Of a stretch of DNA of 64,000 nucleotides, positions 51,552 through 64,000 are shown piece by piece. The stretch spans positions 62,001 to 126,000 of the forward strand of contig NZ_JAGQCJ010000001.1 of assembly GCF_024346135.1 (NCBI RefSeq), in the 5' to 3' direction. The notes beneath the pieces were generated by a model. That model searched no databases. It was not told the DNA's origin and saw only the letters and a program-made list of their open reading frames with translations. Position 1 is the stretch's first letter, and each line of letters starts with the position of its first letter. Made by a program: the position numbers and the translations under genes. This stretch comes from Cyanobium sp. CH-040. GTDB lineage: Bacteria > Cyanobacteriota > Cyanobacteriia > PCC-6307 > Cyanobiaceae.

Positions 51552-51636
51552 GGAGAGGTGGCTGAGTGGTCGAAAGCGAACGACTCGAAATCGTTTGACG
51601 GGCAACCGTCCGTGGGTTCGAATCCCACCCTCTCCG
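51552..51636 (+). tRNA. tRNA-Ser(CGA)
   Basis: An 85-nt class II tRNA. The acceptor stem GGAGAGG/CCTCTCC pairs fully with discriminator G. The anticodon stem is AACGA/TCGTT with loop CTCGAAA, giving anticodon CGA (51586-51588). A long variable arm (GACGGGCAACCGTC) and the T-arm GTGGGTTCGAATCCCAC are present. CCA is not encoded. Its 3' end is the likely attachment site of the downstream element. Confidence 0.95.
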
Positions 51637-51750
51637 TTTATAATTTGCCCCTCGGAGTCTTAGAAAGTCCCAAAACCCCTGCAATGCAAGGGGTTAGAGG
51701 GCTTTTATGGTCCCTATCAATCCCAGTAAGTCCGGTGGTACCCCGGCAAG

Positions 51751-52214: not shown

Positions 52215-52247
52215 ATTTATTTAAACATTATTATTTAGGTGAAATCT

Positions 52248-53522
52248 ATGAAATTAAAAGTTATTCCTACTGACTCTCAAGTGAAAGCACTTAAAGCAGG
52301 GTCAAAACGACAAAGCGTAGGTATGGGCGACTCGCTTTATCTGATTATTGAACCAGTGAAGGTTGGTGGAGGAAAGTCCTTTGAAGGTAGAACGCGATTT
52401 CCACCAGGTCGTGGTGGAACACAGGTATCGGTGAGAATTGGTTGCTATGGAAAGGGTACTGGTAAATGGACACTTAAGGAGGCAAGAGATGAGTGGAGTC
52501 GTATCAAGAATTGGTCAAAGGAAACTGGTAGAGATCCAAGAGACTTCAAAAAAAGAGATCAACCATCAGGAGAAACAAGAGTCAACCAGACGCTTGAAGA
52601 AGTAGCAAAGTCATACTTATCTGAGTCTAAGATTAAAGATTCTACTAGAAAAGACTATCAGAATATGTTATGGAACCAGATCATTCCTGAGTTCGGAGCA
52701 GAGACACCAATAAACTGCTTTGCCTGGGACTATAAGCATAGTTCAGGAAAAACTGGTAGAGAGACCGTGCTTGCTCTTTACAAAAAAGTAAGCGTCCGTG
52801 CACCAGTACAAGCGAAGAAAATTCTTATGGTATTGCGAGCAGTTTTTGATTATGCAATTGATCAAGGATGGATGGAGCGAGACCAGAATTCTGCACTAAA
52901 GGTTAAGATAGCAGATAACATGCATGAAGTAACACACCACCCAACACTCTCATGGGATCAACTACCAGCATTCTTTAACGAGTTAGAGGAAAACAAACCA
53001 AAAGCATCGTGCGTGACAATCTGCGCTGTCAAAGCATTGTTCTTAACATTTCTGCGTGTCGGTTCACTTGTCCCCATGCGATGGGATGAACTAGATTTGG
53101 AAAATAACATATGGGTTATACCTGGAAAGCGAATGAAAAATGGTAGAGATCATATTGTACCGCTGACTAATCCATTCAATGAACTCCTGAACACGCTAAG
53201 GAAATTTAACGGAGAAGAAGAGTTTGTGTTTGCATCACCAAGATCCGGCGAGAAGGGGCATATGAATCCCTATTCTATAAATCAGCATCTAATCCGTATG
53301 GGATATAAATCAGTACTTCGTGCACATGGAGTAAGATCCATTCCGCTAACTGCAGGACAAGAAGTTCTTGGATTCCCTGCACAGGTAATTCAGCGTCAAA
53401 TGGCACATGTAATTGGCGACAAGGTTCGCCAAGCGTATGATAGATCAGAGTTGTTACCAGAGCGAAGACAGTTTATGGAGAGATGGTCTGAGGCACTATT
53501 AGAACAAGGTCTTAGACTCTGA
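52248..53522 (+). CDS. Tyrosine recombinase / integrase
   Basis: A 424-residue integrase. The core-binding domain spans about residues 112-225 (TLEEVAKSYLSESKIKDSTR) and the catalytic domain 235-415. Catalytic residues all appear present: Arg270 (FLRVGSLVPMRWDELD), Lys297 (KRMKNGRDHIVPL), His360 and Arg363 (LRAHGVRSI), His387 (MAHVIGD) and the nucleophile Tyr397 (RQAYDRS). The N-terminal 100 residues form a P4-integrase-like arm domain. ATG 52248 is chosen; GTG 52239 adds three residues. It is expected to integrate at the tRNA-Ser 3' end. Confidence 0.93.
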   Translation: MKLKVIPTDSQVKALKAGSKRQSVGMGDSLYLIIEPVKVGGGKSFEGRTRFPPGRGGTQVSVRIGCYGKGTGKWTLKEARDEWSRIKNWSKETGRDPRDFKKRDQPSGETRVNQTLEEVAKSYLSESKIKDSTRKDYQNMLWNQIIPEFGAETPINCFAWDYKHSSGKTGRETVLALYKKVSVRAPVQAKKILMVLRAVFDYAIDQGWMERDQNSALKVKIADNMHEVTHHPTLSWDQLPAFFNELEENKPKASCVTICAVKALFLTFLRVGSLVPMRWDELDLENNIWVIPGKRMKNGRDHIVPLTNPFNELLNTLRKFNGEEEFVFASPRSGEKGHMNPYSINQHLIRMGYKSVLRAHGVRSIPLTAGQEVLGFPAQVIQRQMAHVIGDKVRQAYDRSELLPERRQFMERWSEALLEQGLRL

Positions 53523-53756: not shown

Positions 53757-53939
53757 ATGGCAAAGTTTATCCGTCTTAAACAAGTAATTGAAAAAACAAC
53801 ACTGTCAAAGTCTGAGATCTATCGTTTAGTCTCCACAAACGAGTTTCCCTCTCAAGTATCCTTGGGTGGACGATCCGTTGCATGGGTTTACGATGAGGTA
53901 GATAACTGGTGTAACCAAAAAATCAATAGTAGAAACTAA
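53757..53939 (+). CDS. AlpA-family regulator / excisionase
   Basis: A 60-residue winged-helix protein: MAKFIRLKQVIEKTTLSKSE, IYRLVSTNEFPSQVSLGGRS and VAWVYDEVDNWCNQKI. This is the AlpA/excisionase (MerR-like helix-turn-helix) pattern, including the FPxxxxLGxRxVxWxxxEVxxW signature. In integrative elements such proteins activate or direct excision by the neighbouring integrase. It has its own transcription unit after the strong terminator. Confidence 0.92.
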   Translation: MAKFIRLKQVIEKTTLSKSEIYRLVSTNEFPSQVSLGGRSVAWVYDEVDNWCNQKINSRN

Positions 53940-54477: not shown

Positions 54478-54503
54478 TTGCCTCAGGAAGGTCTCTGAGG
54501 CAA
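54478..54503 (-). terminator. Terminator of the leftward three-gene micro-operon
   Basis: TTGCCTCAG (54478-54486) and CTGAGGCAA (54495-54503) are perfect 9-bp arms. On the minus strand the hairpin is followed by TTTTTTGG, 20 bp after the stop of the 62-residue protein gene. Confidence 0.82.
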
Positions 54504-54522: not shown

Positions 54523-54711
54523 TTAAGAGTCCTCTTCTAGTTTGGCAAGAAACTTCTTTAAATCTTGTTCTGCCTTTTGGCGCTTATATTTGTCTAGTTC
54601 ACGAATGTAGTATCCTATGGTTTCGGTCAGACATGGATCAGTATTTTCTATGCGGGACTCAAGCATATCAATGATCTCTTGATTGGAGTCTTCATTACTT
54701 GGATTTGGCAT
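54523..54711 (-). CDS. Small helical protein
   Basis: A 62-residue acidic and basic helical protein: MPNPSNEDSNQEIIDMLESR, then ENTDPCLTETIGYYIRELDK and YKRQKAEQDLKKFLAKLEED. Heptad-like spacing suggests a coiled coil. No family recognised. It overlaps the preceding small gene by 17 bp and is last in a run of three overlapping genes ended by a hairpin terminator. Confidence 0.55.
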   Translation of the reverse strand: MPNPSNEDSNQEIIDMLESRIENTDPCLTETIGYYIRELDKYKRQKAEQDLKKFLAKLEEDS

Positions 54712-55428: not shown

Positions 55429-55683
55429 TTATGATAGATTTCCAATGGTCGGGCGACTATATGACTTCATAGAATCGCCCAGAATACACATCTTGTTGGA
55501 GTGATGACGATTATGAAAGTTCAAAAGGTAGTCCAAGGTTTGGGTTCTTGAGAAACCGAGAGACTTACCCAAGAACTCAAACTGCTCAAGGGTTTGAAGG
55601 TGCCTGGTATTGAAGAATAAACTAATCACCCTGGAGTCTGATGAATGAAGATGTTGCATATTGTTCTGATGCCTCAGGTTCAC
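55429..55683 (-). CDS. RHH-like regulator next to candidate Rep
   Basis: An 84-residue protein (GTG 55683; ATG 55659 possible). RVISLFFNTRHLQTLEQFEF then LGKSLGFSRTQTLDYLLNFH resembles a ribbon strand, helix and S-R-T-Q-T-L second helix of CopG-type proteins. The GTG is 6 bp after the stop of the candidate HUH gene. In rolling-circle plasmids a CopG repressor often sits beside the Rep gene, so a copy-number or regulation role is a reasonable inference. Confidence 0.5.
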   Translation of the reverse strand: MNLRHQNNMQHLHSSDSRVISLFFNTRHLQTLEQFEFLGKSLGFSRTQTLDYLLNFHNRHHSNKMCILGDSMKSYSRPTIGNLS

Positions 55684-55689
55684 TACTAT

Positions 55690-56385
55690 TTAGTTTGGCG
55701 GAAACAATAGATCAGAGTTCTCATAGTCCAGAACAAGGTCAGCATCTTGAGAGAACTGATAGCGGTAATAGTCTTTTAGATTGTAGTTCTGGTGTCTTAT
55801 TTCAATCCATGGTTTCAGAACGAAACCCTTATTGCCTTCTGATTTGCTTTTGGAAACTCTTTGAAAACCTTTAATGACCTTTTCGCCGATGAGTAAGTAT
55901 AGGGATTCAAAACTATTATACTGATCGGGGCACTTGCCAAGATGAAAGTGTGTATGGTAAACAGTCTTGAAACGAGGAGTACGGTAAACAGTCTTGAAAC
56001 GAGGATTCTTGGAATTTGAAGGATTGATATTGACTAATTTCTTTTCATGAAACCAGATTATTCTTGGTCTTTCTGCAGGATCAGGAATCTTAGTGGGTTT
56101 TACATTAAGAAGGGCACATAGAAGTTTATTTCTAAAGTGTCTTGCTTCTGCTTCTGCCTCTGAGTAATTTAGGATAAAAGGTTGCCATTGAATCGTACCG
56201 AACCAATGAGGTTTAAAGACTCTAGAGAATTGATAGTTGATCAGTTCTCTGGTGATCTTAGAGTAACTGATGGGATCAAGACCCTTTTGTGAATTCCAAA
56301 GGTGTCTATGATTCCTTAATGAATTCACTCGCTTTGCTCGTGAATGTTGCTCACTTCGTTCGCAACCCTCTTTGTGATTTGACAT
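55690..56385 (-). CDS. Candidate divergent HUH endonuclease (Rep/relaxase-like)
   Basis: A 231-residue protein. Three motifs in the order of HUH nucleases: I, a strand KPHWFGTIQWQPF (about residues 58-70); II, TVYHTHFHLGK with His146-Phe-His148 as the HUH pair; III, Tyr206/207/209 in NLKDYYRYQ, preceded by KPWIEIRHQN. HUH proteins nick DNA for rolling-circle replication, conjugation or transposition. ATG 56385 has a strong Shine-Dalgarno AAGGAG. A 27-bp tandem duplication repeats PRFKTVY just before motif II. The assignment is from motif order only. Confidence 0.5.
   Translation of the reverse strand: MSNHKEGCERSEQHSRAKRVNSLRNHRHLWNSQKGLDPISYSKITRELINYQFSRVFKPHWFGTIQWQPFILNYSEAEAEARHFRNKLLCALLNVKPTKIPDPAERPRIIWFHEKKLVNINPSNSKNPRFKTVYRTPRFKTVYHTHFHLGKCPDQYNSFESLYLLIGEKVIKGFQRVSKSKSEGNKGFVLKPWIEIRHQNYNLKDYYRYQFSQDADLVLDYENSDLLFPPN
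55956..56005 (-). repeat. 27-bp tandem duplication in the HUH-like gene
   Basis: Identical 23-bp blocks at 55956-55978 and 55983-56005 with a 27-bp period (nine codons), encoding PRFKTVY twice directly before the His-x-His motif. In frame. Confidence 0.85.
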
Positions 56386-57035: not shown

Positions 57036-59753
57036 TTAGAAGAATAATTGCTCTTGCTGAGTCCCGAACAGAACCGCAGTTGGATCATTCGGGGATACAG
57101 TCAATCTCAAATCTGATGCCGTTGAGGCACTTGTAAAGTCTGGAGAGGCAATGGTTGCAACCAGTTCATCACCTGAGCGAATTTCAAAGGTGTAGGTTGT
57201 AACCTTCTTTTTCCCCTTGCCTGAAGTTGTCTCAATACGAGTGGTAGAGAATCCATCATTTGCCATAAGAACGTAATCCTCACCTACCGTAAAGTTGCTG
57301 ATGCGGGCAGATCCAGAATTTGCAGCAGCATAAGCATCGTCTAGATAGTTACTGGTTCTCAGATCAAACACATCAATAGCACCAGTGGTGCCAGTCAGAG
57401 AATCAACCAATCCTGTGGCATCACCACCTGGGGCGACGATTCCACCACCCTGAAGAAGATTCCGATAGGTTCCACCTGTGATGGAATCGGTTCCCAATTC
57501 ACCCTTAATGATCAGTTGACCATCAAAGGCGGGACGACTTAATCCATCGGTGCTATTTAGATCACCTGCTCCACTGATGTTGTTGGCAGCGTCTCCTCCA
57601 GTGAAGGTGATGCCATCTACATCTGTGAATGAGTCAATCAGTGTATAGGTCTTTTGCTCTTCCCAAATTGGTTTTCCTTTGTCGGGATTAACATTCACCC
57701 TCTCTGTAGTGACACTCTCAATCTTCGCGGTGTTACCAGTTCCAAGGCGTTGTGAGAGTCCTGATATCAGAATGTTGGGATCATTTCTGGATGCGCTTGC
57801 AATGTCAAAGACAGAACTTACAATCTGTTCTGCTGTCTCAAGGACTCTTGTGTATCCTTGTGCATCAGTATATTGTAACTGAACCTTGTAAGTCCCTGCT
57901 CCATTGCCAGGAACTAGATAAGTCTGATTGATTGCATCAGCAATTTCAACGCCATCAAGGAACCATTGATACTGGTAGTTCGGCGTTGCAGAGTCACCAT
58001 CAGGATCTCCCGTAACTGCTGGAGCACTAAGGGTGACTCCCTCTTCAAACACACCCGGATCTGATGAGGTGATTACACCTATTGTGCCTTGACCATTATC
58101 AACCTCTAGGATATCACGAGCAGGAGTTTCAACGGTTGCAATATTTCCTTCTGCATCCGTGTAGGTTAGTGCAACCTTGTAGGTGCCAGCACCATCATTG
58201 GGTACTGCATATGATGACCCCGTTTCACCGACGATCTCTGAGTCATCCAGGAACCATTTATACTGATAGTTCGGGGTGGCGGAATCACCGTCTGGGTCAG
58301 TAAACACAGGTGGTGCAACTAGTGTGACACCTTCCTCAAAGATACCATAGTTAGGCGGATGCGATATAATTACACCCGCAGTTCCTTGACCATTGTCAAC
58401 CTGTAGCACATCCTGTGGGGCAGAATCTACAGTAGCAATATTTCCTTCGGCATCTGTATAGGTAACTGCCACCTTGTAGGTGCCAGATCCATCATTGGGT
58501 ATAACAAGAGATGCTCCAGTTTCACCAGGGAGTTCCGCATCGCCCAGGAACCATTGGTACTGATAGTTAGGGGTTGCAGAATCACCATCGGGATCACCTG
58601 TCACTTCTGGCGCAAAGAGTGTGACTCCTTCTTCATATATGCCTGGAGTTGATGAGGTTATCTGACTTGCAACCCCTTGACCATCATCCTGAACCAAAGG
58701 AGCAATTGCAACATTATCAAAATATGCATAAATACCCTCCTCATCAGACGTGATATTGCCTCCTAGTTCTAGACTAAGAGTATGGACTCCCGCCTCAAGA
58801 TAAATTGAACCCTCTAGGTTGCCGTGGACGTAAGTGTTCCAATTAAGGTTTCCTGTAGACCATGTATCAAGTAAAACATTGTTTACAAGAAGTCGTGTGT
58901 CTCCGTCGTCCTCAAATGATGACGAAGGTTGAGATGACATATACTTACCCGTGTATGCATCAACAACATAATTCCCGCTCTCTACAACTTCAAACGTTGT
59001 CCTAAATCCAATTATCCCATAGTTTCCTTGTGTTCGTCTAATACTTAGACGTAGTGCCGAACCATCCCCTCCCCAAATAGGTTCTTGTCCGTCCCCAACC
59101 CATGTTGGTTGGACGCTAAATGTATTTGAGACCCACTCTGGGGTGCCAAGGTCTAACCGAGACACCTCAGTGTATGGCGTACTTACGTAAGAAGTCCAAC
59201 CGTCAAGAGTGTTAAAGATGCCATTTGAAATAATTGGAGTTGACGATGCCTCGGCAATAAGCGTATCTCCATTGTCGCTTCTCAACAAGACCATATCATC
59301 TGCGTATAGACTGCTATCGGATTCATGTCGGGTGTACTTTCTATGATGCAAAAGTCGTGCAAATACTTCTCCTTCGTCACCTGCAGTATCCACCTCATTG
59401 AACAAACCATCCAGATGGTGTCCAAGTTCTTCGGTGAGAACCGAAATCACCTGATCTTGTGATGCAGTTGCCAACCAGTCCCGATTGAGATAGATCTTGC
59501 CGGTGCTAAGTGCATAGGCACCCAGAGCACCACTAATGTCCTCATTGGAGAGCAGGACGATTTCGGGTAGGGCACTGAAATCTCCTGCTGACCACTGCCC
59601 GATCAGATTCGTCAGTTCCTGGGGTTCATCGTCCAGCAGCAGTGCTTCTTGTGCTGCTGCGCTCAGCGATCCATTGACAGACCACTCAGTAAGCATGTCG
59701 TGCCATGCTGGGAGAATGGATGCAAGGGCGCTGTCTGTCCTGGTAATCGTCAT
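57036..59753 (-). CDS. Large secreted protein with three Ig-like repeats
   Basis: A 905-residue acidic protein. The N-terminal 170 residues include VLTEELGHHLDGLFNEVDTA and GDEGEVFARLL, a motif region seen in large exported cyanobacterial proteins and possibly metalloprotease-like. Residues about 175-350 form a beta-rich domain. Three tandem repeats of about 95 residues follow, each with EEGVTL, DPDGDSATPNYQYxWFL and GTYKV-x-YTDAEGN, possibly Ca2+-binding. The C-terminal 200 residues (DSITGGTYRNLLQGG; ARISNFTVGEDYVLM) resemble RTX-type secretion domains without the GGxGxD array. No signal peptide; type I secretion is likely. Possible adhesin cargo. Confidence 0.75.
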   Translation of the reverse strand: MTITRTDSALASILPAWHDMLTEWSVNGSLSAAAQEALLLDDEPQELTNLIGQWSAGDFSALPEIVLLSNEDISGALGAYALSTGKIYLNRDWLATASQDQVISVLTEELGHHLDGLFNEVDTAGDEGEVFARLLHHRKYTRHESDSSLYADDMVLLRSDNGDTLIAEASSTPIISNGIFNTLDGWTSYVSTPYTEVSRLDLGTPEWVSNTFSVQPTWVGDGQEPIWGGDGSALRLSIRRTQGNYGIIGFRTTFEVVESGNYVVDAYTGKYMSSQPSSSFEDDGDTRLLVNNVLLDTWSTGNLNWNTYVHGNLEGSIYLEAGVHTLSLELGGNITSDEEGIYAYFDNVAIAPLVQDDGQGVASQITSSTPGIYEEGVTLFAPEVTGDPDGDSATPNYQYQWFLGDAELPGETGASLVIPNDGSGTYKVAVTYTDAEGNIATVDSAPQDVLQVDNGQGTAGVIISHPPNYGIFEEGVTLVAPPVFTDPDGDSATPNYQYKWFLDDSEIVGETGSSYAVPNDGAGTYKVALTYTDAEGNIATVETPARDILEVDNGQGTIGVITSSDPGVFEEGVTLSAPAVTGDPDGDSATPNYQYQWFLDGVEIADAINQTYLVPGNGAGTYKVQLQYTDAQGYTRVLETAEQIVSSVFDIASASRNDPNILISGLSQRLGTGNTAKIESVTTERVNVNPDKGKPIWEEQKTYTLIDSFTDVDGITFTGGDAANNISGAGDLNSTDGLSRPAFDGQLIIKGELGTDSITGGTYRNLLQGGGIVAPGGDATGLVDSLTGTTGAIDVFDLRTSNYLDDAYAAANSGSARISNFTVGEDYVLMANDGFSTTRIETTSGKGKKKVTTYTFEIRSGDELVATIASPDFTSASTASDLRLTVSPNDPTAVLFGTQQEQLFF

Positions 59754-60143: not shown

Positions 60144-60563
60144 TCAACTCTCACACCAAAGGTCAAGTCCAAGTCCAGAAAGTGCAGATGCGCGGCGTAA
60201 ACAGGAAGATGCAGCGGTTTCAACTTTCGGTGCCATTGATTTTCCGTTCAGGGGTTCAGAGGCAACCGCACTGAAATGAAGCAATCCATCCGTAGTTGGA
60301 ATGCTCAACCTCCCAGTGACTACAACTGAATCAGCGATCTGTTGAACCGCCTGAATCTCAAAGCACCACCCAGGAGCACGATGATGAAGGTGCTTGGCAA
60401 GAATCGCCCAGGGGACATAGGTCAGTGTGATCGCGCCTTGCTTGCGAGTTCTGAAGTGCCTTGGATCAATCGGACGATTCAGTTCCGCAAGAGTCTCTTC
60501 GGTGGACTTCTGTGTGAACCTGACGGGTGCGGAAGATCCGTTGCGAGTCGTAAGTGTGGTCAT
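60144..60563 (-). CDS. Rad52-like single-strand annealing protein
   Basis: A 139-residue protein. ELNRPIDPRHFRTRKQGAIT is followed by LTYVPWAILAKHLHHRAPGW, then VVTGRLSIPTTDGLLHFSAV and a C-terminal ETAASSCLRRASALSGLGLD-LW. This follows the Rad52/Sak (DUF1071-like) pattern: an SxxTW-like start, a mid strand and the final ALKRA-x-GLGLxLW helix. Phage-type Rad52 proteins anneal complementary single strands during recombination. A dyad leader element abuts its ATG. Confidence 0.65.
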   Translation of the reverse strand: MTTLTTRNGSSAPVRFTQKSTEETLAELNRPIDPRHFRTRKQGAITLTYVPWAILAKHLHHRAPGWCFEIQAVQQIADSVVVTGRLSIPTTDGLLHFSAVASEPLNGKSMAPKVETAASSCLRRASALSGLGLDLWCES

Positions 60564-60604: not shown

Positions 60605-60988
60605 TCAGAAGTCTTCTTGCGTAAGGACCAGATAGGTCGTTCTCAGTTCGGTCGCTTCTCCGGATTCCTGAGCATCCTTCTGAATGGCACGAATGACATT
60701 TCGGATCTCAGGGGCATACTGCCAACTGGTTCGGGTTCGTTGGCGCAGGATGCATCCACCAGGGACACGAATCCCACGACGAAGTTCAGCGGGTGAGTAG
60801 GTGGTGGAGAGTTCCTCGTCAATCGCCTGACGCTCCTGCTCCAGCACCTTGAGTTGCTCTGAGACCTCCACACGCCTCTGTAGCAGTCCTTCAGGCGTGA
60901 GAAAGGCAAGGTGAGGGAATGGATCCTCACGTTCCTTTGGAAGCGCTTCCAGGACCTTCCGAAGGTCTTGTGGATTGATCGGTGTCAT
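60605..60988 (-). CDS. Hypothetical protein with coiled-coil segment
   Basis: A 127-residue protein. MTPINPQDLRKVLEALPKER, then EGLLQRRVEVSEQLKVLEQE with heptad spacing typical of a coiled coil, then a basic stretch SPAELRRGIRVPGGCILRQR and a C-terminal helix-strand region (EIRNVIRAIQKDAQESGEAT). The start overlaps the upstream RHH-like gene (ATGA). No family recognised. Confidence 0.55.
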   Translation of the reverse strand: MTPINPQDLRKVLEALPKEREDPFPHLAFLTPEGLLQRRVEVSEQLKVLEQERQAIDEELSTTYSPAELRRGIRVPGGCILRQRTRTSWQYAPEIRNVIRAIQKDAQESGEATELRTTYLVLTQEDF

Positions 60989-61182
60989 GCCTTGTCATTG
61001 ATTTCTCCTCGCTCCACCAGAAGGTCGTAGTACGCCGTGATGGCATCCTCTACGATGGAAGCAAGAGTGAATGATTGTTGATCATGGCGTCGCTGCTCCT
61101 GAATCACCGATACCAGTTCCATCACCTCTGATGAGAGGCGAATGCCAAACTGCTTCGGTGCATCAGGATGTTCTTTTGCCAT
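60985..61182 (-). CDS. RHH-like DNA-binding protein
   Basis: A 65-residue protein. KQFGIRLSSEVMELVSVIQE then FTLASIVEDAITAYYDLLVE is a good ribbon-helix-helix pattern (strand, helix, T-x-A-S-I-V-E-D-A-I helix). It is coupled by ATGA to the coiled-coil gene downstream. A 19-codon open frame with the dyad leader element lies just upstream, which may control its translation. Confidence 0.6.
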   Translation of the reverse strand: MAKEHPDAPKQFGIRLSSEVMELVSVIQEQRRHDQQSFTLASIVEDAITAYYDLLVERGEINDKA

Positions 61183-61811: not shown

Positions 61812-64000
61812 CTAGAACTCACTAGTGTATTCCGACAAGATGTTGTCTACGGATAGCGAGGCAACCCTTGATGCGTCCAGGCATCCAATAATACTCCGCA
61901 TCTCCAGTACATCTGAAAATGATAGTGTTCTACCTTTTCTATCCAGTATCCACTTCTTCACAGGATAGTACCCTCCAAACCTTGCGCTTAAGAGTTCCTC
62001 GCTAACGCAGTCTAGATACTGTGTTTTATTGATATATATTCTTTGACCTTCTGATTTATAGTTAACAATTGTATTGTTTCCGCTTCCTTCAAAACTTGGC
62101 AGGTTGCCCCAGTCTTTCTTCCTTAAGTGATAACATGCTAATTCGTGACCTACCGCTACTATCCTGCCAAAAACCTCATATGAGTCCACGAGAAATACAT
62201 GCATAAAGTCTCTTTTTAACAGATCATCATACTTCTCCCTAAACAGATGAGACTGGGACAACCCAAATATATAGAACAAGATATCTTCTGGGTGGATTAC
62301 CTCCCTATGCATGGGACGCTCTAAACCCCAATCTAGTGGCGTGCAGTCAAAACTAACGCCATACAGTTTCTGGATCTCTTCTATGAACCTCTTATCATAG
62401 TGGTTACTCCTTTGAATACTAGAACTTACTGATTGACTTACTCCTAAACCCGACTTATTGCTATATAGAGGGAAAACATAGTTAATATCATAATTGGCAA
62501 ATGCTTTATGGGCGACAACGCAATCACTTATAGCGCACCCCCAGTTATCCTTTGTTTGCCTTGTTGTAACAAGAGCAAGATTTCCTGGACACAACAGATG
62601 ACTATTAACACGTTCTCGTCGGTGAACTGCTACACTGCTATCAAAGACCGTGTAGCGGAAATTAAACGGTCTATACAACACCCTGACAATCATGCTTTTC
62701 CAGTCTTTAGCGCATAAACTATTCTTCGCATTAACATAGTTCCACTGATTGGTTGAGCAAAGTCGAAAACGTCGCCTTGCTTCTTCTTCTGTCTTTGTCT
62801 CCAGAAACCACTCGATCTTCTCGACTAGTTCATCCTGCGTTAATGCAAACGCGAATTCATCGTGAGTCGAAACTAGTCCTGGCGCTGGACTGCCGGCACC
62901 ACTAAATATAAATGGCAACGATGGGAATCCCATGTAGTCCTGTGAACTACTTTCATTGATTGGTACAAATAACCATCGATTCTCCTGAGAAGGACTCAAT
63001 ATCTTCCAATCAAAGTCGTCGAGGGATGATTCCATAAGATCATTGTATTTTCTTTCCCTTTTTCCTTTAATAGATGCATAATAGACTTTTGCATCATGGT
63101 TCTCAGAACCTCCATCTGATTCATCCGATTTCTTGATAAAGAGCGTAATGGCAACCCCTTGTCCGACACCCACGAATACGTTCTCATCGCGCATACCTTC
63201 ACTTGTCTTATCTTTCTTCTTTTGATTCCCATGAAGATCGATTATATAGATACTATCATATGTCAACAACAGACTCTTTCTCATCCCAAGAAACGTTGGA
63301 TTATCTAAATATGAATTATCCGTGATAAAGGCAACTATTCCCTTGCCCGTTCTTTCAATTCTCCACTGGGCAAAACGAATAAACTTTACGTAGTCGTTAT
63401 TTAACCACTTTGCTTGACCTGGTTTTGATAATTCACTATATCCCTTTTTGTAATCGTCTACGAGTCCTCTGATCCACGCCGTATTTGTCTGAGAATGCCC
63501 TTGGTATGGAGGATTACCTATTACTACCATCACATCCTCCTTTGACTTTACCCTTTCTGCTCCTATAGTCTCCTGCGCAATTTCATGTGCAAAGATCGAA
63601 CCATGGGTTGACTCTTCTGGCGCTATGAGACTATTAGTTAAATATATGCCAATTCTGGCATCCTCATCTGGATGTACGTCAAGACCCAGTTGTGCGCTTA
63701 CCAATAAGTGTGCAATAGTATATGGTGCACACTCAAGTTCAAAACCAAAGAGACGTTTGACCATGTTTTCACGAATATAACTATCCCAAATTCCTTCCAT
63801 TCCTTCATTCTTAACCTCCCCTGAGATTAATCTGATTATTTCAAGCAGGAATGTACCTGTCCCTGCAGCAGGATCAAGAATTATTGGTTGCTGGAGAATT
63901 CCTGATCCAAAGTCGCCTGCAAGACCATTTTTAAATCTAAACACGTCTTTAAGTATAAGATTAATATTTCTGCATATAAATCTCACAATTGGTTTTGGAG
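61812..64000 (-). CDS. Type ISP restriction-modification enzyme, C-terminal part
   Basis: At least 729 residues; the 5' end lies outside the window. Methyltransferase motif I is IILDPAAGTGTFLLEIIRL and motif IV VVIGNPPYQGHS, defining an N6-adenine methylase. The target-recognition region follows (about residues 350-600), with TPLDWGLERPMHREVIHPED and LFYIFGLSQSHLFREKYDDL near the end. Single-chain type ISP (LlaBIII-like) enzymes have an Mrr-like nuclease and helicase before this part, expected beyond 64000. Likely phage defence cargo. Low GC. Confidence 0.85.
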   Translation of the reverse strand, partial: PKPIVRFICRNINLILKDVFRFKNGLAGDFGSGILQQPIILDPAAGTGTFLLEIIRLISGEVKNEGMEGIWDSYIRENMVKRLFGFELECAPYTIAHLLVSAQLGLDVHPDEDARIGIYLTNSLIAPEESTHGSIFAHEIAQETIGAERVKSKEDVMVVIGNPPYQGHSQTNTAWIRGLVDDYKKGYSELSKPGQAKWLNNDYVKFIRFAQWRIERTGKGIVAFITDNSYLDNPTFLGMRKSLLLTYDSIYIIDLHGNQKKKDKTSEGMRDENVFVGVGQGVAITLFIKKSDESDGGSENHDAKVYYASIKGKRERKYNDLMESSLDDFDWKILSPSQENRWLFVPINESSSQDYMGFPSLPFIFSGAGSPAPGLVSTHDEFAFALTQDELVEKIEWFLETKTEEEARRRFRLCSTNQWNYVNAKNSLCAKDWKSMIVRVLYRPFNFRYTVFDSSVAVHRRERVNSHLLCPGNLALVTTRQTKDNWGCAISDCVVAHKAFANYDINYVFPLYSNKSGLGVSQSVSSSIQRSNHYDKRFIEEIQKLYGVSFDCTPLDWGLERPMHREVIHPEDILFYIFGLSQSHLFREKYDDLLKRDFMHVFLVDSYEVFGRIVAVGHELACYHLRKKDWGNLPSFEGSGNNTIVNYKSEGQRIYINKTQYLDCVSEELLSARFGGYYPVKKWILDRKGRTLSFSDVLEMRSIIGCLDASRVASLSVDNILSEYTSEF

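Follow-up and report, generated by a model that had tools for sequence, protein, structure and literature searches.

A Probable Rolling-Circle Replication Module in Small Integrative Elements of Picocyanobacteria

Introduction

In picocyanobacteria, which are abundant, genomic islands drive much gene turnover, and the persistence and spread of the small elements among them call for an explanation. The tycheposons of Prochlorococcus, like the elements reported here, are picocyanobacterial integrative elements that target tRNA genes and carry tyrosine recombinases. The locus considered here lies in a 64-kb stretch of Cyanobium DNA, hereafter called the window, and raises the question of whether an integrated element may carry the means of its own replication. 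The initial annotation had read one of its open reading frames as a possible divergent HUH endonuclease paired with a ribbon-helix-helix (RHH) regulator. We analyzed this gene, its neighbors and the elements in which its relatives reside.

A Gene Family under Purifying Selection

The central gene is the following, as characterized by homologues, alignments, AlphaFold2, structure search, PHROG profiles and dN/dS:

55690..56385 (-), HUH-type nuclease and candidate rolling-circle initiator, 231 aa

The reading frame lies exactly where it had been annotated and has a good ribosome-binding site, its ATG start being preceded by an AAGGAG box 8 nt upstream; the segments WFGTIQW, YHTHFHLGK and WIEIR...YNLKDYY were all found in it as originally read. 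Of the 300 genomes compared within the host's family, 14 have a homologue, the named ones being Synechococcus, Cyanobium and Vulcanococcus, and a phylum-wide sample of 386 genomes returned homologues in this family only. Such a distribution, together with pairwise dN/dS values of 0.08-0.25 for the gene core in the computable pairs, indicates a real gene under purifying selection. Searches of phages and plasmids by tblastn, and of viral contigs in two scans, found no homologue; hence no free replicating form was seen in any plasmid, phage or viral contig searched.

Decay affects many copies of the module, as the homologues in L005, L011-L014 and L017 carry stops, an internal deletion or a truncation. 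The window copy itself contains a 27-nt tandem duplication at 55952-56005 (96% identical), absent from its relatives, which adds nine residues (RFKTVYRTP) directly before the HxH strand and may impair this copy.

Putative Catalytic Residues and Predicted Fold

The putative catalytic positions of the protein are listed below:

Residues 62-65, motif I, FGTI
Residue E114, candidate metal site
Residues H144-T-H146 (plus H148), motif II
Residue Y201 in YNLK (201-204, with K204), motif III, candidate nucleophile

The invariant positions among 11 homologues include H144, H146, H148, Y201, N202 and K204, forming the patterns HxHxH and YxxK. When L032 and L034, two distant relatives of about 20% identity, are added to give 13 sequences, E114, H144, H146 and Y201 are the only invariant residues left, even if the tyrosine of YLGK in these two aligns to Y201 only with a gap, which makes its equivalence there uncertain. 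The U position of HUH is Thr or Ser in all 13 sequences, not a hydrophobic residue. From this conservation, E114, H144 and H146 together with Y201 would provide the Glu/two-His metal site and the nucleophilic Tyr that an HUH nuclease needs. His146 and His148 had been proposed as the metal pair; His146 is retained in this role whereas His148 is not, since H144 and H146 (HTH) are kept even in the most distant relatives. The earlier choice of Tyr206/207 as nucleophile has to be abandoned, because several members have other residues there, the invariant tyrosine being Tyr201 of YNLK. The motifs, of which the first reads W-F-G/I-T, follow each other in the order I-II-III with a YxxK tyrosine motif, which is the order of Rep proteins and the reverse of that in relaxases (PMC5714925); motif definitions for plasmid and viral Reps, including motif I as UUTU, are given in PMC6668415.

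The AlphaFold2 model built on the family alignment has a mean pLDDT of 77, with values of about 90 or more across most of the core. Its N-terminal half contains a strand at 61-65, a helix at 74-93 and strands at 109-119 and 139-149, the last carrying HxHxH; its C-terminal half contains a helix at 159-173, a strand at 188-192 and a helix at 203-209 that adjoins Y201. The same order, b-a-b-b(HxH)-a-b-a(Y), is repeated in the model of L034, which is 20% identical. E114 and H144 each lie at the center of a predicted strand, the two strands being neighbors, and they probably face each other.

Structure searches with Foldseek against a viral library placed five named replication initiator or replication-associated proteins, mostly of microviruses, among the top 50 matches (E 0.01-0.04). 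Against the PDB, AAV Rep appears weakly with the model of the window protein and heads the full-length matches with that of L034, for which nuclease domains of parvovirus B19 NS1 are also listed. The E values for AAV Rep, NS1 and the viral Reps span 0.01-0.2, all weak, and no structure match of either model reaches E 0.001. In the structural comparison proposed in the initial annotation, the order of strands and helices fits that of an HUH nuclease, and the database matches are weak.

For the window protein itself, no credible match came out of profile searches with Pfam, PHROG, NCBIfam, PADLOC and PDB; the hits to dynein light chain (E 0.01-0.2) lie in its N-terminal part and were taken as chance. 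None of these searches linked it directly by sequence to an HUH family, and hhalign of its family against a microvirus Rep was not significant. An independent indication is the match of L032 (E 7e-4) and L034 (E 1.3e-3) to phrog_3584, annotated as replication initiation protein, over residues 6-165. The identification as a divergent HUH nuclease is supported by the four invariant residues, the Rep order of the motifs, the order of the fold, the weak but consistent structure matches and these relatives with phrog_3584 similarity.

Tandem Hairpins at the Start of the Gene

Two 21-nt hairpins, spaced 1 nt apart, occupy codons 7-21 of the HUH gene and form a candidate origin of 43 nt:

56346..56366 (-), hairpin 1, candidate origin (dso), GTTGC-GA-AC-GAA-GT-GA-GCAAC
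56324..56344 (-), hairpin 2, candidate origin (dso), TTCAC-GA-GC-AAA-GC-GA-GTGAA

Each consists of a 5-bp stem, tandem G.A pairs, 2 bp and a triloop, which in hairpin 1 is of the GNA type. A structural scan of the window found this build exactly twice, both times at the start of the HUH gene, against 0.04 expected in simulated sequence. Across 294 kb of context loci the count was 11, including the two of the window, against 0.15 expected, and all 11 full-match hairpins lie on the sense strand at the 5' end of an HUH gene. Among eight members 94.6% of the cells are paired, compared with 30-38% when the partners are slid, and 7 of the 14 pairs show compensatory change. AlphaFold2 predicts disorder for residues 1-34 of the protein, and L008 has kept the hairpins, although they now stand in front of the reading frame instead of within it. 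Because of their rarity, their pairing and compensatory changes, the disordered N-terminus and the situation in L008, our comparison of sequences points to selection on the hairpins as nucleic-acid structure, not as peptide.

In a partial check of the genome, 15 sites of GARCGNAGYGAG were found, and complementary arms are present only at that of the HUH gene. The hairpin type is absent from the full-length genes of L004 and L007 and from divergent members, and the inverted repeats surrounding HUH genes without G.A hairpins share no common structure. Hairpin-1 loops are mostly of the form C-GNA-G, a loop type that is very stable in DNA. Rfam gave no match at the hairpins. PMC10527192 does not confirm an association of d(GCGAAGC) hairpins with the origins of phages. 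The tandem hairpins are candidates for a rolling-circle origin.

The Downstream Partner Gene

The HUH gene is followed by a partner gene and further small features on the same strand:

55429..55683 (-), RHH-like partner gene of 84 aa with GTG as its start; an alternative ATG lies at 55659, and the conserved part starts there
54523..54711 (-), small downstream gene
54478..54503 (-), hairpin resembling a terminator, where the operon of small genes ends

The partner gene begins 6 bp downstream of the HUH gene in the window, with gaps of 6-301 bp across copies, and is present in 13 of the 14 genomes with the HUH gene versus 3 of the 286 without it (Fisher p = 4e-19, a value that serves only as a guide since related genomes are not independent). 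The three exceptions, L107, L108 and L111, have the partner without a recognizable HUH gene; the reverse is found in one genome. A strand-helix-helix pattern with an SRT turn is conserved in 12 aligned copies. Searches of the partner against Pfam and PDB profiles found no match, and hhalign against an approximate CopG sequence gave a very weak result (P 0.0097, probability 4%). The RHH gene annotated 6 bp downstream is thus a real, conserved and linked gene, and its RHH fold, deduced from this pattern and the very weak CopG match only, is to be read as putative.

On visual inspection, the small downstream gene looks like the conserved third gene found in other copies (LPETYxYLMxEMDxQ). The terminator-like hairpin is weak, since one was found against 1.7 expected in shuffles. 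A second small protein of RHH-like look is encoded at 60985-61182, and a similar one lies near the orphan partner gene in L107.

The Host Island and Related Elements

The gene pair resides in an integrative element with the following landmarks:

51626..51638 (+), attL core CACCCTCTCCGTT, at the 3' end of tRNA-Ser(CGA) 51552-51636
52239..53522 (+), tyrosine integrase of the element (Pfam PF00589, E 1.2e-15; Arm-DNA-bind_3)
53757..53939 (+), AlpA-family excisionase/regulator (Pfam PF05930, E 3.5e-20)
68021-68033, attR, a 13-bp copy of CACCCTCTCCGTT, 4 kb past the end of the window at the G+C boundary

The G+C content falls from about 0.70 to 0.4-0.5 at tRNA-Ser(CGA) and recovers at about position 68000. 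A genome search with the last 17 bases of the tRNA missed attR; the 13-bp repeat was found by exact-word comparison. Two relatives of the same genus retain the empty site, in which a comEC-like gene, tRNA-Ser and an esterase-like gene are adjacent. The att repeats, the G+C boundary and this empty site define a host element of about 16.4 kb.

Other genes of the element include a 905-aa protein at 57036-59753 with weak matches to PKD/Ig-like domains, possibly a surface or secreted cargo, and a type IIG/ISP restriction-methylation gene at 61812-63986, running on into L073, as further cargo. The product of 60144-60563 is weakly similar, below the cut-off, to PF06378 (E 0.0057), the family of Sak single-strand annealing proteins, and similar reading frames occur in L056 and L057; this protein could work with a single-strand replication intermediate.

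Counting that of the window, six att-bounded elements of 6-16 kb with different integrases were delimited around the HUH gene. Repeats of 26-33 bp derived from tRNA-Cys span 6.1-8.3 kb in L050, L051, L053 and L059, and a 13-bp repeat bounds 10.6 kb in L055; L057 showed no att repeat in the available flanking DNA. L050, L051, L053, L058 and L059 share related integrase-like proteins, the tested one of which had no Pfam match; most of these loci also have a small serine recombinase, and four adjoin tRNA-Cys. Integrases of the L053 type occur in 34 genomes, only six of which also have the HUH gene, and the L053 integrase has no match in the window genome. A gene with the look of a REP-associated tyrosine transposase (RAYT) stands beside the two most distant relatives (L032, 244-1029; L034, 2259-3094), next to a tyrosine integrase.

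A Proposed Rolling-Circle Module and Its Alternatives

Taken together, we consider it likely that a stand-alone, single-tyrosine Rep-type HUH endonuclease, the RHH-like gene and the two hairpins form a rolling-circle replication module of small picocyanobacterial integrative elements. The integrase and AlpA would excise the element from the tRNA gene, where the att repeats and the empty site have been observed. On the resulting circle the tandem hairpins, whose conservation is documented above, may extrude and be bound by Rep. With E114, H144 and H146 holding a metal, Tyr201 would then nick one strand in or beside the hairpins and prime rolling-circle synthesis, as the residues and fold suggest. 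The RHH-like protein may repress or tune rep expression in the manner of CopG, and the element would finally re-integrate or pass on as extra copies. The earlier suggestion that the integrated element may replicate is plausible, and it gains strength from the covariation of the hairpins and from the integrative element demonstrated here. Weighing most against the module are the structure matches, none of which is significant, and the lack of a free replicating form among the collections searched.

The alternative to be taken most seriously, if doubtful, is that the hairpins work in mRNA, in translational control or as a binding site of the partner protein, and are not a DNA origin, the protein still being an HUH nuclease that acts at another site. 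Codons 7-21, which hold them, do belong to the transcribed strand, and the pair counts cannot separate RNA from DNA; however, L008 keeps its hairpins outside the reading frame, and the C-GNA-G loops prevailing in hairpin 1 are of a type with great stability in DNA. Hairpin origins next to rolling-circle initiators are, moreover, known (PMC13107129).

The other alternatives rank below the rolling-circle module. It is unlikely that the protein is an HUH relaxase nicking an oriT formed by the hairpins, in an element mobilized by a helper conjugation system. Integrative elements often carry HUH relaxases, inverted repeats are frequent in oriT, and relaxases can also drive replication, as in ICEBs1 (PMC5714925), but the motifs run I-II-III with the Tyr after HxH, the opposite of the relaxase order (PMC5714925), and no relaxase or conjugation family appeared among the element genes tested by Pfam. 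Less probable still is a Y1 transposase or RAYT relative mobilizing the hairpins as REP-like elements. This would suit the succession of HUH and Tyr, typical of Y1 enzymes, the resemblance of the hairpins to REP palindromes and the RAYT-looking gene adjoining L032 and L034; yet the full-match hairpins are not dispersed, being confined to the gene start in the loci read, just one of the 15 GARCGNAGYGAG sites from the partial genome check (the HUH gene's own) has complementary arms, and the element ends are tRNA-derived repeats, as a tyrosine integrase predicts. We regard as very improbable a nuclease/RHH module that stabilizes the island like a toxin-antitoxin system: antitoxins are frequently RHH proteins and the gene pair is tightly linked, but the RHH gene lies downstream of the putative toxin and not before it, three genomes have the RHH gene with no recognizable HUH gene and one has the HUH gene without the RHH gene, and the invariant set is that of a nickase, with no PADLOC model matched.

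The simplest and most likely account is thus a rolling-circle module that elements with different integrases have in common. We lean, with some reserve, toward the broader proposal of an unrecognized family of HUH initiators, with tandem G.A-hairpin origins inside rep, that gives several unrelated classes of tRNA-targeting islands an autonomous rolling-circle phase. The 'genomic islands' of Synechococcus, Cyanobium and Vulcanococcus that have such a phase would therefore be integrative rolling-circle plasmids. If true, the module would explain how such islands copy themselves. As a compact set of Rep, RHH gene and a candidate origin of 43 nt, in which the putative catalytic residues can be named, it makes the question of mobilization directly testable, and it could supply a replicon for genetic tools in picocyanobacterial hosts.

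Comparison with Known Replicons

Microvirus-type and phage replication initiators (HUH Reps; phrog_3584) share with the protein described here the motif order I-II-III and a single domain, and are its neighbors in structure searches. The distant relatives L032 and L034 match phrog_3584, whereas the window family itself has no significant sequence similarity to these Reps; in addition, our genes reside on tRNA islands and not in phages, and their family has a single-tyrosine YNLK motif with HTH replacing HUH.

Among integrated elements, the passages of PMC10187409 at hand describe a picocyanobacterial mobile element at tRNA-Cys/tRNA-Phe that has a novel tyrosine integrase and a mobilization mechanism that is not known. 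Our tRNA-Cys elements fit this description, a likeness by description and not by sequence. Those passages name no replication gene, whereas the elements reported here carry the HUH gene; that of the window differs further in having another integrase and tRNA-Ser.

In CopG/RepB replicons of the pMV158 type, as in our elements, a replication initiator adjoins a small RHH-like regulator. The RHH gene here lies downstream of rep, whereas copG precedes repB (PMC5717011), and the present module has no sequence match in plasmids. The SNJ2 Rep-Arvir replicon is archaeal, has a Rep_trans-like fold instead of HUH and places its hairpin downstream of the gene; like the elements reported here, it is integrated and pairs a rolling-circle initiator with a neighboring hairpin, which is an essential origin in SNJ2 (PMC13107129) and a candidate origin in the picocyanobacterial islands.
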